64,000 nucleotides of DNA from Amycolatopsis sp. NBC_01480 (lineage in GTDB: Bacteria > Actinomycetota > Actinomycetes > Mycobacteriales > Pseudonocardiaceae). Positions 46,905 through 51,618 of this stretch are shown here, one piece after another. The translations under genes were made by a program, and so were the position numbers. Below the pieces are notes generated by a model that was not told the DNA's origin, did no database searches, and worked only from the letters and a program-made list of their open reading frames with translations. The DNA lies in assembly GCF_036227205.1 (NCBI RefSeq), contig NZ_CP109442.1:2604001-2668000 (forward strand), read 5' to 3'. Numbering within the stretch: the stretch's first letter is position 1; every line of letters begins with the position of its first letter.

Positions 46905-47579
46905 GTGGACGAAACCCTGGCCCGTGCGGGCATTTTCCAGGGTGTTGAGCCGGCGGCCGCGGAGGCTCTGGCCCAGACCTTGGAATCCGTGGAGTTCCCC
47001 CGCGGCCATGTCATCTTCAACGAGGGCGAGCCCGGCGACAAGCTGTACATCATCCAGTCCGGCAAGGTGAAGATCGGCCGCAAGTCCCCGGACGGCCGCG
47101 AGAACCTGCTGGGCATCTTCGGCCCGTCCGACATGTTCGGCGAGCTGTCCATCTTCGACCCCGGCCCCCGCACGTCCAGCGCGACGACGGTGACCGAGGT
47201 CCGCGCGGTCACCATGGACCGCCCGGCGCTGCGCCAGTGGATCTCCACCCGGCCGGAGATCGCCGAGCAGCTGCTGCGCGTGGTCGCCAGGAGGCTGCGC
47301 CGGACGAACAACATGGTCGCCGAGCTGATCTTCACCGACGTCCCCGGCCGCGTGGCCCGGGCGCTGCTGCAGCTCGCGCAGCGCTTCGGCAGCCAGGAAG
47401 CCGGCCTGCTGCGGGTCACGCACGACCTCACGCAGGAAGAGATCGCGCAGTACGTCGGCGCTTCCCGCGAGACCGTGAACAAGGCGCTGGCCGACTTCGC
47501 GCACCGCGGCTGGCTGCGGCTCGAAGGCAAGAGCGTGCTGATCCTCGACCCGGAGCGGCTGGCGCGGCGCGCCCGTTGA
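46905..47579 (+). CDS. crp: cAMP receptor-type regulator (Crp, Rv3676-like)
   Basis: A 224-residue CRP/FNR regulator. The cyclic nucleotide domain (residues 1-125) has the phosphate-binding cassette [20 protein letters not shown]. The helix-turn-helix is [40 protein letters not shown]. In mycobacteria the counterpart is a global cAMP-responsive regulator of respiration, rpf and whiB genes. GTG 46905 has AGGAGG about 10 nt upstream. Monocistronic, with a strong terminator. Confidence 0.95.
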
Positions 47580-47659: not shown

Positions 47660-48000
47660 TGTCAGGCAAGGAAGTTCTGGCAAAAACAAACGAGGAGCCG
47701 GGCGCCACCCCCGACGTGGCGCACCGGCTCCTCGCTCGCGCGCGGACCATCCCCCGACGACCCGCGCTCCCGCCCTCCGGACCAGGCCCCGACCCGTATG
47801 CCAGAGGGAGCTGGGAGTTGTGCTGTTGTACAACCATCATGGCCCATACCCACGAATTCAAGGCCATTCACTCTCAAGGACGCCACTTCTGCGGTTTCGT
47901 TGCACGAGTTCACCGAGAATCCATACAGCGTTACGGGATCGAGACCTCAGGCACTGAACCCATCCTTCCATGCCGGCAGTGACGCACCTGACCGTCAAAT
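47660..48000. other. gap between crp and MFS gene
   Basis: Only the crp terminator and the MFS promoter region are recognisable. Small open frames on both strands (for example 47662-47913 minus) have no family resemblance and no SD, so I do not call them. Confidence 0.45.
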
Positions 48001-48004
48001 AATT

Positions 48005-48048
48005 GGTACTCACGTACCACTCTGTTGCATACTGGTACGCGTGTCCCA
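48005..48048 (+). promoter_or_regulatory. operator-promoter of the MFS gene
   Basis: GGTACTCACGTACC (48005-48018) is an inverted repeat. The pattern GGTAC-N6-CCACTCT (48005-48022) recurs at 48034-48051 as GGTAC-N6-CCACTCT. Between them CATACT (48028-48033) lies 7 nt before GTG 48041, a leaderless promoter flanked by two copies of the possible operator. Confidence 0.5.
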
Positions 48049-49297
48049 CTCTGCCCAGTCCGAAGGCCGGACCACGCTAGCCGACTACCGCACCGCCCTG
48101 ACCGCTCCCGGCTCGCGCCGCGCGGTTCTGGCGTCCGTGCTCGCCCGGCTGCCGATCGCGATGATCGGCATCTCGGCGCTGCTCTACGTCCAGCGTGAGA
48201 CGGGTTCGTTCGCCACCGCGGGCTTGGTCTCGGCCAGCTCGCTGGCCGGCGTCTCGGTGGGCGCGGTGATCCAGGGGCGGCTGATCGACCGCTTCGGCCC
48301 GACGCGCCCGCTGCTCGTCACGGCGCTGGTGCTCACGCTGTCGATGACCATGCTCGCCCTCGCGATCGAGGCCCACGCGGCGACGATCCTGCTGGTCGCG
48401 CTGGCGGCGCTGACCGGGCTTTCGGAGCCGATGGTGGGCTCGGCCTCGCGGGCGCTGTGGACCCGGCTGCTGCCCGCGGGGAGCGCGCGCAACGCCGCGT
48501 TCTCCTATGAAGCGATCAGCATGGAGATGTTCTTCATCCTCGGCCCCGGTATCGCGGGCCTGCTGGTGACGGCCCCCTGGCCGGGCACCGGCATGGTCGC
48601 GGGCACGGCGGCGATGGTCGTCGGCGCGACGCTGTTCGCGCTGAGCCCGGCCGTCCGCGCGTGGGGCCCGGCGCCGCGAACGAAGAAGCCCCTGCTGGGC
48701 GCCCTCGCCGGCCCGGGCATGCGCACGCTGGCACTCGCAGCGCTCGGCTTCGGCATGGTGATCGGTTTCGTCGAGGTCGCCGTGCCGGCTGCGGCAACGG
48801 AGTCCGGCCACGCTTCGTTGAGCGGTCTGCTGCTTTCGGCGTGGTCGCTGAGCTCTGTGGCGTTCGGCGTGGCGTACAGCCTCCACCCGTGGCCGCGCCG
48901 GCTGGGCCTGCGCCTGCCGGTGCTGCTCGGTGGTTTCGGCGCGCTGGTCGCGCTGCTGGCGCTGCCGTCGTCCCTGTGGGCCTTGGCGATCCTGATGCTC
49001 CTGGCCGGCGCCATGATCACCCCGCAGTCGACCACCCACTCGGCGGCGATCGAGCTGGTCGCGCCCCGCGGCACGGCCGCGGAGGCCTTCGGCTGGGTGC
49101 TGACGGCGGTCACGCTGGGGCTCGCCGCGGGCCAGTCGGTGAGCGGTTACCTGGTGGAGCACGCGGGCACGAGCGCGGCATTTCTGGCGGCGGGGGTGGC
49201 TGGGGTTGTGATGGCCGTTGTGGTTTGGACGCTGCGCGGCACGGTTCGGCCGGTGGTTTCGGCTGCGCCTGCGGAACTGGTCGGCGTGGGACGGTAG
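48041..49297 (+). CDS. MFS transporter
   Basis: A 418-residue, 12-helix major facilitator with no clear substrate. Helix 1 begins PIAMIGISALLYVQRETGSFATAGLVSA, the first loop has GRLIDRFGPTRPLL, and later GLSEPMVGSASRALWTRLLPAG is typical of the drug/sugar-efflux-like actinobacterial group. GTG 48041 is fixed by the -10 seven nt upstream. The gene interrupts the order crp to MBL hydrolase seen in mycobacteria, so it is probably an insertion together with the DnaN paralogue that follows. Confidence 0.85.
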   Translation: MSHSAQSEGRTTLADYRTALTAPGSRRAVLASVLARLPIAMIGISALLYVQRETGSFATAGLVSASSLAGVSVGAVIQGRLIDRFGPTRPLLVTALVLTLSMTMLALAIEAHAATILLVALAALTGLSEPMVGSASRALWTRLLPAGSARNAAFSYEAISMEMFFILGPGIAGLLVTAPWPGTGMVAGTAAMVVGATLFALSPAVRAWGPAPRTKKPLLGALAGPGMRTLALAALGFGMVIGFVEVAVPAAATESGHASLSGLLLSAWSLSSVAFGVAYSLHPWPRRLGLRLPVLLGGFGALVALLALPSSLWALAILMLLAGAMITPQSTTHSAAIELVAPRGTAAEAFGWVLTAVTLGLAAGQSVSGYLVEHAGTSAAFLAAGVAGVVMAVVVWTLRGTVRPVVSAAPAELVGVGR

Positions 49298-49410: not shown

Positions 49411-49433
49411 TTGTCGGTGGGCGGGGCTAGCTT
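49411..49433 (+). promoter_or_regulatory. perfect RecA-NDp (PafBC) promoter of the DnaN paralogue
   Basis: TTGTCGGTG (49411-49419), exactly 8 nt, TAGCTT (49428-49433), then 7 nt to ATG 49441. Every defined position of TTGTCRGTG-N8-TANNNT is matched, and the transcript would be leaderless. Confidence 0.85.
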
Positions 49434-49440
49434 TGCGGGC

Positions 49441-50508
49441 ATGGATCTGACGTCCCCAGTGCGGCCGCTGTCGGCGGCTGCTAGTGCCGCGGTCCGGCTG
49501 CTGCCGCGGCAGGCTTTGCTGCGGCTGCGCGCCGACGAAAGCGGAGTCGTGGTCGCGGGCAGCGACCGTGACCTCGCCGTGCGGTTCGCGTGCGCGGCCA
49601 CCACGCACACCGACGGCGAAGTGCTCGTTCCCGCGACGCCGCTCGCCGAGACGCTGCGCATGCTAGACAGCGAGCTGGTCCGGCTGGTCGTCGAGGGCAG
49701 CCGGCTCGCGGTGCGGGTCGAGGGTGCCCGGTTCGCCCTGCCGCTGCTGGACCGCGACCTGCGGTCAGAGCCACCCTCGCCGCCTCTGGTGTCCGAAGTA
49801 GACGGTGCACTCCTGGCAACGGCTCTGCGCACCGTGGCGGGCACGGCGGCGAAGGACGACCCGCTACCCGTCTTCACCGGGGTCCGGATCCAGGCCGGCG
49901 GCGAGGGCCTGCGGCTGACCGCGTCGGACCGGTACCGGATGGCGGTCGCGCGGCTGCCGGTGCGGCGTGCCGAGGGGCCGCTCGACGTGCTCGTCCCGGC
50001 CGTCCTGCTCACCGAGGCCGCGCGGCACGCCCACGGCGTCCTCGGCCTGCACGGCGACGGCAGCCGGTTCGGCCTGAGCTGGGCCGGCGGCGCGGTCACC
50101 ACCGCGGTCCTGGACGCGGGTTTCCTGTCGGAGGACGCGATCCCGTCCGACGCCGTCGATACCGAAGTGGAGATCGACGCGGACGCGCTCGCCGCCGCGG
50201 TTCGGCGGGTTGGCGTTTACTCCGAGGACCGACGCATCCTCACCCTGGAGGTCGGCGACGCGCACGTTCGCCTCGCCAGCTCTCGCCAAGACACCGGCGA
50301 AGCGGAGGAAACGCTGAAGGCAAACGTTTGCGGCGGCCGCACCTCACCGTCCTTCCAGGCGAAGTACCTCCTGGAAGCCCTGGCTCCGTTCTCCGGCGGC
50401 GACGTCCGGCTCACCATCCAGCCCGGGATGCGCGCGTGTGTCCTGCGTTCCGTCGAGGCGAAGGAGGTCGAGCTGACGTACTACCTGATGCCCATGCTGC
50501 CCCGCTGA
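49441..50508 (+). CDS. DNA polymerase III beta clamp paralogue, damage-controlled
   Basis: A 355-residue protein with the three-domain layout of the sliding clamp but well diverged. Domain 1 (1-125) holds LPRQALLRLRADESGVVVAGSDRDLAVRF and VLVPATPLAETLRML. Domain 2 (~127-235) has LPVFTGVRIQAGGEGLRLTASDRYRMAVARLPV, the best-kept clamp block. Domain 3 (~240-355) has AKYLLEALAPFSGGDVRL and ends YYLMPMLPR, like the YLLMPVR tail of DnaN. The housekeeping dnaN should lie near oriC beside dnaA, so this is a second clamp. ATG 49441 is set by the leaderless PafBC-type promoter. It probably serves a repair or translesion polymerase; that role is inferred. Confidence 0.85.
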   Translation: MDLTSPVRPLSAAASAAVRLLPRQALLRLRADESGVVVAGSDRDLAVRFACAATTHTDGEVLVPATPLAETLRMLDSELVRLVVEGSRLAVRVEGARFALPLLDRDLRSEPPSPPLVSEVDGALLATALRTVAGTAAKDDPLPVFTGVRIQAGGEGLRLTASDRYRMAVARLPVRRAEGPLDVLVPAVLLTEAARHAHGVLGLHGDGSRFGLSWAGGAVTTAVLDAGFLSEDAIPSDAVDTEVEIDADALAAAVRRVGVYSEDRRILTLEVGDAHVRLASSRQDTGEAEETLKANVCGGRTSPSFQAKYLLEALAPFSGGDVRLTIQPGMRACVLRSVEAKEVELTYYLMPMLPR

Positions 50509-50593: not shown

Positions 50594-50848
50594 TCAGGCG
50601 GCGGACTCGGCCCGCACGGCCGCTTCCACCTCGTCGAAGCTCGGGTTCACCAAGGCGGTCGAGCCGATGATCACGGTCGGCACGGTCTCGTTGCCGTTGG
50701 CCACCGCGCGCACTCGCTCGGCCGCGCCCGGGTCTTCCCAGATGTTGATCTCCTTGACGTTCAGGCCGCTCGCCATCAACGGGCGCCGCAGCGCCGCGCA
50801 GAAGCCGCAGCCCGGCCGCCAGTAGAACTCGACCTCGACGTCACTCAT
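50594..50848 (-). CDS. mycoredoxin-like glutaredoxin
   Basis: An 84-residue thioredoxin-fold protein with the N-terminal YWRPGCGFCAALRRPLM (CGFC active site), INIWEDPGAAERVRAVANGNETVPTVIIG (cis-Pro TVP) and LVNPSFDEV. This is the mycoredoxin pattern, so it should reduce mycothiol mixed disulfides. ATG 50848 overlaps the stop of the MBL hydrolase gene (ATGA). Confidence 0.9.
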   Translation of the reverse strand: MSDVEVEFYWRPGCGFCAALRRPLMASGLNVKEINIWEDPGAAERVRAVANGNETVPTVIIGSTALVNPSFDEVEAAVRAESAA

Positions 50849-51618
50849 CGCGCGTCCTCCGAAGAACGTAGGTAGTCCAGCTGCGCCTGCACGCTCAGCT
50901 CGGCAGGCGCCCACAGTGCCTGGTCGACGTCGGCGTAGACGACCTCGACCACCTGGCGCGGAGTCGCGTCCGCGCCGAGCACCCCCAAGGCGGAACGCAC
51001 CTGGTCCAGCCGCTGTTCCCGGTGCGACAGGTACTCGCGCGCGGTCGCGGGCAGATCGGCCAGCTCGGGGCCGTGCCCGGGCAGGCCGGGGGTGCCGCCG
51101 GGCAGCTCGATCAGCCGACGCAGGGAGCGCAGGTAGTCGCCGAGATCGTGCAGCACAGTGGTGCCGCGGCCCAGGATCGTGTCGCCGGTCAGGATCTGGC
51201 CCGCGACGTGCAATGACACGGAATCGTCCGTATGCCCGGGGGTGTGCAGCACCTCGAAGCTCAGGCCGCCGGCGGTCAGCACGTCGCCGTCCGCGAACGG
51301 CTCCGCGCCCAGGCACAGCGACGCGTCGAACGCCCGCACCGGCGCCCCGACCTTCTCTGCCAGCCAAGGCGCGCCCTCGGCGTGGTCCGGATGGTGGTGG
51401 GTCAGCACGATCAGCTCGACCGGTCCGACGGCCGCGAGCAGCTCCAAATGCTCCAGGTCGCGGTAGCCCGGGTCGACGACCACGGCGGCGGGCGCGTCCG
51501 GCGCGCGCAGCACCCAGCTGTTCGTGCCCTCCAGCGTCATCATCGACGGGTTGTTCTCCAACAGCACCGAAGCTGTCTCGGAAACACGGCGCAGCTCGCC
51601 GTACGCGGGCGCGGTCAC
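50845..51618 (-). CDS. metallo-beta-lactamase-fold hydrolase (Rv3677c-like)
   Basis: A 257-residue MBL-fold enzyme. The metal motif is LTHHHPDHAEGAPWL (HxHxDH), then HTPGHTDDSVSLHVAGQILTGDTILGRGTTVLHD with the further His and Asp ligands, and GHGPEL near 155. A C-terminal helical domain (REYLSHREQRLDQVRSALG) resembles the LACTB2-like group, which includes RNA endonucleases and thioesterases. It starts at GTG 51618, 1 nt after the stop of the NUDIX gene, and overlaps the mycoredoxin gene. Confidence 0.9.
   Translation of the reverse strand: MTAPAYGELRRVSETASVLLENNPSMMTLEGTNSWVLRAPDAPAAVVVDPGYRDLEHLELLAAVGPVELIVLTHHHPDHAEGAPWLAEKVGAPVRAFDASLCLGAEPFADGDVLTAGGLSFEVLHTPGHTDDSVSLHVAGQILTGDTILGRGTTVLHDLGDYLRSLRRLIELPGGTPGLPGHGPELADLPATAREYLSHREQRLDQVRSALGVLGADATPRQVVEVVYADVDQALWAPAELSVQAQLDYLRSSEDAR

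Follow-up and report, generated by a model that had tools for sequence, protein, structure and literature searches.

A second beta sliding clamp behind a very probable PafBC promoter in Amycolatopsis and many of its relatives

Introduction

The single bacterial beta clamp, DnaN, is treated as a hub at which enzymes of replication, translesion synthesis, mismatch repair and ligation compete. In Escherichia coli, UV induces beta*, a short DnaN that is made from an internal start inside dnaN and not from a separate gene. According to excerpts of the respective articles, eukaryotes have a damage-response clamp, 9-1-1, beside the replicative one (PMC9690074), and two second DnaNs, GriR and MypR, have been published as self-resistance genes connected with griselimycin and mycoplanecin (PMC10817943).

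In mycobacteria, PafBC bound to single-stranded DNA redirects SigA RNA polymerase to a class of promoters (PMC11804915, excerpt) for which the consensus tTGTCRgtg - 8 nt - TannnT has been given (PMC5656591, excerpt). Neither "dnaN" nor "sliding clamp" occurs in the latter paper, the one article on the PafBC regulon examined for these terms. For Streptomyces venezuelae, an initial search suggested that the mycobacterial PafBC motif was not conserved (PMC9380542, excerpt).

Here we analyzed a window of 64,000 nucleotides from Amycolatopsis sp. NBC_01480 (contig NZ_CP109442.1, positions 2,604,001 to 2,668,000). A preliminary description, made from the letters alone, had proposed a damage-inducible second sliding clamp in this window, held that bacteria normally have one clamp, and knew of no described system of this kind. 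The second statement needs qualifying, given that several actinomycete families besides this one have second clamps and that GriR and MypR are published. The third needs it too: second DnaNs are known as self-resistance proteins (PMC10817943, excerpt), but we found no damage-controlled second bacterial clamp among open-licence PMC articles, subscription papers lying outside the scope of this search.

Results

The ATG at position 49441 opens a frame of 355 codons, dnaN2, that ends at 50508 (49441..50508, forward strand, as are all dnaN2 features given below; 355 aa plus stop). Its product matched PF00712 (domain I, 49516..49755, aa 26-105), PF02767 (domain II, 49798..50037, aa 120-199) and PF02768 (domain III, 50140..50496, aa 234-352), each above the Pfam cut-off, and is thus the full three-domain DnaN paralogue that had been proposed. 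The predicted structure has the half-ring fold and inter-domain arrangement of DnaN superfamily clamps. PF02768 had two matches in the 10.1 Mb host genome, dnaN2 and a canonical dnaN 0.6 Mb away, so that dnaN2 is not the only clamp gene of this organism and the second clamp is real. DnaN2 shared 32% identity (aligned part) with the genome's own DnaN and 94% with a protein of another Amycolatopsis. In the NCBIfam search, it scored 127.9 bits against the dnaN equivalog TIGR00663, below the cut-off of 137.65, and we therefore consider it a paralogous clamp and not DnaN proper. The dN/dS ratio of dnaN2 was ~0.12 in the closest pair, with a median of 0.15 (66 pairs); judged by these ratios, purifying selection maintains the gene.

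The upstream promoter element TTGTCGGTG (49411..49419) is a perfect PafBC-type consensus and is followed, 8 nt further on, by the -10 element TAGCTT (49428..49433) and a 7-nt gap (49434..49440) before the start codon, as read from the sequence. The complete TTGTCGGTG-GGCGGGGC-TAGCTT (49411-49433) has no second perfect occurrence in the window and places at the start of dnaN2 the TTGTCRGTG-N8-TANNNT arrangement expected of the PafBC regulon. Across the host genome, the strict motif occurred at 27 sites, compared to none for a reversed-pattern control. A downstream frame was chosen for all 27, a judgement call where the start was not close. Besides dnaN2, this gave 26 genes, of which four had no Pfam match. 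The products encoded behind the motif included UvrA, an NAD-dependent ligase, a protein with a UvrB-interaction domain (Mfd-like), a proteasomal ATPase, RarA/MgsA, an exonuclease/GIY-YIG fusion and an AAA/RecF-like protein; others, such as glyoxalases, transporters and hydrolases, had no evident repair role. Two of the 27 motif-linked genes were glyoxalase-like. The R position of the motif was G at 27/27 sites and never A.

The host genome encodes both PafB and PafC, as an adjacent pair of pafB- and pafC-like genes near a pup-ligase match, with WYL and WCX domains in both proteins and HTH_PafC in one; an NCBIfam search of the two proteins returned no match. Given the 27 sites against none in the control, the pafB/pafC-like genes and the conserved position of the motif at 77 of 80 loci (see below), the sequence preceding dnaN2 is very probably a PafBC promoter, and the perfect TTGTCGGTG-N8-TAGCTT that the preliminary description reported is present. 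A gap of 6-8 nt also fits the leaderless ATG proposed there, with the transcription start deduced from this gap, implying a transcript that would be leaderless or nearly so.

Among the 30 loci fetched from the genus (the window's own included), all carried the motif with N8, matching at 12/12 positions in 29 and at 11/12 in one, and all had a gap of 6-7 nt between motif and ATG. Eighteen further loci from the genus, family or order (L060-L077) had scores of 8-12 and, in every case, a start codon 6-7 nt past the motif; four canonical dnaN genes scanned beside them scored 7-8, and a partial match (L079) had no such motif site. In a scan of named genomes, 80 of 114 relatives were kept, 79 of them from genera that we take to belong to Pseudonocardiaceae and one from a Nocardia sp. 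The motif was found in 77 of these 80 loci, at 9-12/12, with N8 spacing and 6-8 nt before an in-frame start, and was missing in three (L086, L093, L137). Scores of at least 10 were reached on the forward strand in 69/80 loci and on the opposite strand of these stretches in 0/80, where the best scores were 7 in 13, 8 in 49 and 9 in 18; in part, these 80 loci also belong to the genus set, and common descent connects them, so that they are not independent trials.

We detected dnaN2 in 32/35 genomes of the same genus, with one copy broken, while 3/35 had none. The broken copy (L195, genome G001) retains an intact 12/12 promoter, and its frame is broken towards the C-terminus. In other genera of the family, dnaN2 was present in 16/34 genomes (G167 by partial match) and missing in 18/34, and in other families of the order, it was present in 2/207, as judged by match strength. 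The usual gene order in a synteny set of 25 loci (24 representatives plus the window, with a codon filter that overlooked dnaN2 itself in four) was nth - crp - MFS - dnaN2 - MBL - NUDIX, named by reading. In the window, the crp-like gene (46905..47579, forward strand; cluster C3, 19/25 loci) and the MFS-like transporter gene (47798..49297, forward strand; cluster C0, 23/25 loci) lie upstream, and the metallo-beta-lactamase-fold gene (50845..51618, reverse strand; cluster C5, 15/25 loci) lies downstream. A. alkalitolerans had different neighbours around dnaN2.

The MFS-like gene, searched with a query from 48053, was retained in 8/8 family genomes without dnaN2, none of which had a dnaN2 match (E 1e-3) in the 1.5 kb past it. 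In seven of the eight, an MBL-like gene followed the MFS gene, within ~75 nt in five and at 0.7-1.0 kb in two; it was not seen there in the remaining one. Taken from these comparisons, dnaN2 is a discrete unit at a mostly fixed site, and a dispensable one, given its lack in 18/34 family and 3/35 genus genomes and its breakage in one. In genome G173 (L072, L200), the canonical DnaN was 91% identical to that of the host, compared to 44% for DnaN2, which points to a replacement or transfer of dnaN2 in that genus.

We compared functional sites between 109 DnaN2 and 21 canonical DnaN sequences in E. coli numbering, after dropping one DnaN2 of odd length (L086). Besides the genome's own DnaN, the canonical set comprised 19 family sequences and a single one from family f5, and site roles, including those of I78 and L273, were taken from an excerpt of PMC11139829. 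Two positions of the dimer core differed together. I78, present in 21/21 canonical sequences, is T71 in the window (49651..49653) and T in 108/109 DnaN2, and L273, which is V in 21/21 canonical sequences, is Y260 in the window (50218..50220) and Y in 98, F in 10 and H in 1 of 109 DnaN2. The dimer interface strand, R97-F98-A99-L100 (49729..49740; E. coli R105-F106-S107-L108), had R97 in 109/109 and F98 as F in 102 and Y in 7. The acidic stretch E287-A-E-E290 (50299..50310) corresponds to E. coli E301-E304. Charged interface residues were kept, with R105 in 109/109, R269 in 109/109 and E304 in 106/109, so that the residues by which a clamp would dimerise into a ring appear conserved in modified form. 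A mixed ring with DnaN would set I78 against Y273, a clash, and T78 against V273, a hole; the paired, near-fixed core substitutions therefore favour DnaN2 as a separate homodimer.

The partner pocket was also altered. In subsite I, E. coli L155 is F145 (49873..49875), with F in 105/109 DnaN2. Pocket positions 173-177 read D163-R-Y-R-M167 (49927..49941), where Y165 (102/109) replaces the F of canonical clamps (H in E. coli) at position 175 and M167 (101/109) replaces L177. In subsite II, N320 is Q306 (50356..50358), with Q in 106/109. The C-terminal tail YYLMPML (50479..50499; E. coli Y359-R365) keeps the pocket proline P363 as P351, in 109/109 DnaN2. In the window's DnaN2, L replaces both P242 and R365; of the 109 sequences, 54 have L at the R365 position and 53 have R. 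At an 85% threshold and with the DnaN2 set reduced to 67 sequences non-redundant at 90%, a single choice of set and threshold, 28/366 positions were fixed differently between DnaN2 and canonical DnaN, including 6/25 positions from the literature versus 22/341 others (Fisher p 0.007). The inner helices carried a mean charge of +2.4 in DnaN2, compared to -0.4 for the relatives' canonical DnaN and +6 for the E. coli clamp.

Searching for possible clients in the host genome, we found three DnaE matches and seven IMS-family matches. LexA-like boxes were found at imuA-imuB-dnaE2 and one dinB, near which the only PafBC-like sites were 10/12 matches without the TA of the -10 element. At a dinB-like gene, a LexA-like palindrome overlaps the start codon (L178:1765-1778), as a leaderless gene of the SOS response might have it. 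The genome also has a further imuA-imuB-like pair, its second, and a third dnaE (L176:2190-4492, L177:7554-10895), which lie ~15 kb apart and resemble a split second mutasome operon. Another DinB-like gene (L179:1045-2323, reverse strand) has a PafBC-like site of 11/12, 8 nt before its GTG, and scores of at least 10 were found in 11/15 of its orthologues. This motif was present in 6/10 genomes with dnaN2 and 5/5 without, and the gene is thus not tied to dnaN2. By a simple pattern, no clamp-binding motif was found in its protein, while ImuB and the LexA-type DinB have one, and we regard this polymerase as a candidate DnaN2 client and no more. RarA, considered as a co-regulated loader, was likewise not tied to dnaN2, with the motif at 10/12 or better in 5/12 genomes with dnaN2 and 4/9 without. 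No specific DnaN2 partner was therefore found among the rarA and DinB-like candidates examined.

A clamp search across the class (216 genomes, E 1e-55) revealed other second clamps. Family f31, which corresponds to Streptosporangiaceae by its relatives Microbispora, Streptosporangium, Nonomuraea and others, had two or more clamps in 18/18 genomes. The first eight of its second clamps were 46-49% identical to the canonical DnaN of their respective hosts versus 26-28% to DnaN2, carried the pocket changes P242I, L247R (V in E. coli), N320Q and P363S, and had a canonical dimer core, with I78 in seven and V in one. Sixteen second clamps from the 18 genomes were read (L228-L235, L257, L260-L262, L265, L267, L270, L272), leaving out the third clamp of G417 (score 6); the motif reached at least 10/12 in 11/16, and the other five scored 8-9 in a similar place. 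In Streptomyces (f33), two of three second clamps scored 11. These motifs, of the TTGTCAGTG type and 11/12 in two Streptomyces genomes (L264, L276), contrast with the report from S. venezuelae of a motif that is seemingly not conserved. The f31 and Streptomyces promoters lie 42-74 nt before the clamp match, compared to the leaderless-type spacing at dnaN2. Second clamps of family f32 reached 10/12 in 0/6 cases, so that PafBC control does not follow from the presence of a second clamp. In f31, f32, f33 and related families, 1/21 of the genes treated as canonical dnaN reached 10/12. Some other clamps, from f13, f15 and G345 (scores 7-9), do not enter these motif counts.

In a tree of 97 sequences, DnaN2 was recovered as a single clade (100); the second clamps of f31 grouped in another (98), nested among f31 dnaN (86, 72). 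A common origin of all motif-bearing second clamps was rejected (p-AU 0.0036), and a common origin of DnaN2 and the f31 clamps alone was weakly rejected, at a borderline level (p-AU 0.045, p-SH 0.059). Given the tree and the rejection of a single origin for the motif-bearing clamps, second clamps linked to PafBC very probably have two or more origins. Descent of DnaN2 from within the dnaN of the family itself was not rejected (p-AU 0.12-0.14), and the branching of DnaN2 outside canonical clamps may therefore reflect long-branch attraction.

Weak third clamp matches were rejected as DnaN2, since 9/12 fetched regions were, by reading, fusions of a MerR-type helix-turn-helix with clamp domains. 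Such fusions, in which the helix-turn-helix is joined to clamp domains II-III (L184, L185, L186, L188-L193), occur in several genomes of the order and span roughly 350-385 codons, with one in a longer frame.

Discussion

Our results confirm the observation made in the preliminary description and bear out its interpretation in part. They make it somewhat probable that the product of dnaN2 is a second beta clamp reserved for conditions of DNA damage, with its own homodimeric ring and a pocket retuned for repair or tolerance clients. By analogy with mycobacteria, from which we infer the induction, damage would lead to accumulation of single-stranded DNA and thereby to activation of PafBC, which would direct SigA RNA polymerase to TTGTCGGTG-N8-TAGCTT and yield a nearly leaderless dnaN2 mRNA. 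The protein, predicted to fold as a clamp half-ring, would form a homodimeric ring via the core in which T and Y take the place of I78 and L273, as the fixed paired substitutions suggest, and would presumably be loaded by the housekeeping loader. L155F, F175Y, L177M and N320Q, together with L at P242 and R365 in the window's DnaN2, would retune the usual pocket, which might then prefer clients for repair, gap filling or translesion synthesis to the replicase. DnaN would stay with the replicase while DnaN2 served repair and tolerance enzymes, which would make DnaN2 a bacterial parallel to checkpoint or repair clamps. More tentatively, actinomycetes may have repeatedly evolved a damage-controlled second clamp with its own ring and clients, dividing a replicative from a repair clamp in roles like those of PCNA and 9-1-1.

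Given that GriR and MypR are described as self-resistance DnaNs (PMC10817943, excerpt), the leading alternative is inducible tolerance to clamp-binding natural products, in which griselimycin-type peptides would block the DnaN pocket, forks would stall, PafBC would fire and a clamp with an altered pocket would take over replication. According to the same excerpt, mycoplanecin A induces the recA and radA damage reporters and is bonded by R365 of E. coli DnaN, a residue that is L in the window's DnaN2, and pocket residues are among those changed in DnaN2. However, R365 is kept in about half of DnaN2, and of the reduced binding of griselimycin-type peptides expected of a GriR/MypR-type clamp, DnaN2 displays the pocket changes only. 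Nor does dnaN2 lie in a biosynthetic gene cluster; it has a conserved syntenic site, flanked by crp/MFS-like genes on one side and MBL/NUDIX-like genes on the other. The MFS gene beside it is found just as regularly where dnaN2 is missing (8/8), a distribution by which we also rejected a combined efflux and target swap with this gene. The dimer core is changed as well, which drug escape would not need. The conserved gene order away from any cluster, the altered core and the PafBC-type promoter thus speak against drug tolerance as the whole answer, and we consider it unlikely.

In a further alternative, DnaN2 would act as a brake, competing for the clamp loader or for polymerases and slowing replication under damage without itself supporting synthesis. 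Such a competitor might well have a damage-type promoter and an altered pocket, but the inner-ring charge and P363 are kept, more than a pure decoy needs, and this role seems improbable. Even less probable is the mixing with DnaN that the preliminary description had considered, whereby hetero-rings with one normal and one altered pocket would change which polymerase holds the fork. Such rings could draw on F106, R269, E304 and the interface strand, which are common to DnaN and DnaN2; however, the core is changed on both sides at once, with I78T and L273Y/F near-fixed (108/109 each), and a hetero-interface would be mismatched. This argument covers DnaN2 only, given that the second clamps of Streptosporangiaceae keep the canonical core.

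If a dedicated damage clamp is indeed what dnaN2 encodes, some bacteria would resolve the competition at the clamp by making a second, inducible hub, and how fork access is divided under damage becomes a question that this clamp makes testable. A damage-induced clamp with another pocket could also alter the response of soil actinomycetes to clamp-targeting antibiotics.

Comparison with known systems

DnaN2 shares with housekeeping DnaN the three domains, the half-ring curvature, the dimer-interface strand and the C-terminal pocket tail, and differs from it in its PafBC-type promoter, its diverged dimer core and pocket, and its dispensability. Like the proposed dnaN2 product, beta* of E. coli is a damage-inducible form of the clamp, but unlike that product, it does not come from a separate gene. 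With the mycobacterial PafBC regulon, the host genome has in common the promoter consensus, the regulator genes and repair genes behind the motif. GriR and MypR resemble dnaN2 in being a second dnaN in an actinomycete genome; however, mypR and griR lie with biosynthetic clusters near transposase genes (PMC10817943, excerpt), whereas dnaN2 occupies a conserved chromosomal site and has a damage-type promoter, and we set DnaN2 apart from these proteins by their description. The second clamps of Streptosporangiaceae and Streptomyces are like dnaN2 in having a PafBC-like motif and, in the former, a changed pocket, but unlike DnaN2, they have a canonical dimer core and a promoter 42-74 nt off, and they do not form one clade with it. 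Finally, the eukaryotic 9-1-1 clamp is a heterotrimer that acts in checkpoint signalling and has no sequence relation to DnaN2, so that the likeness between the two would be an analogy of function only.
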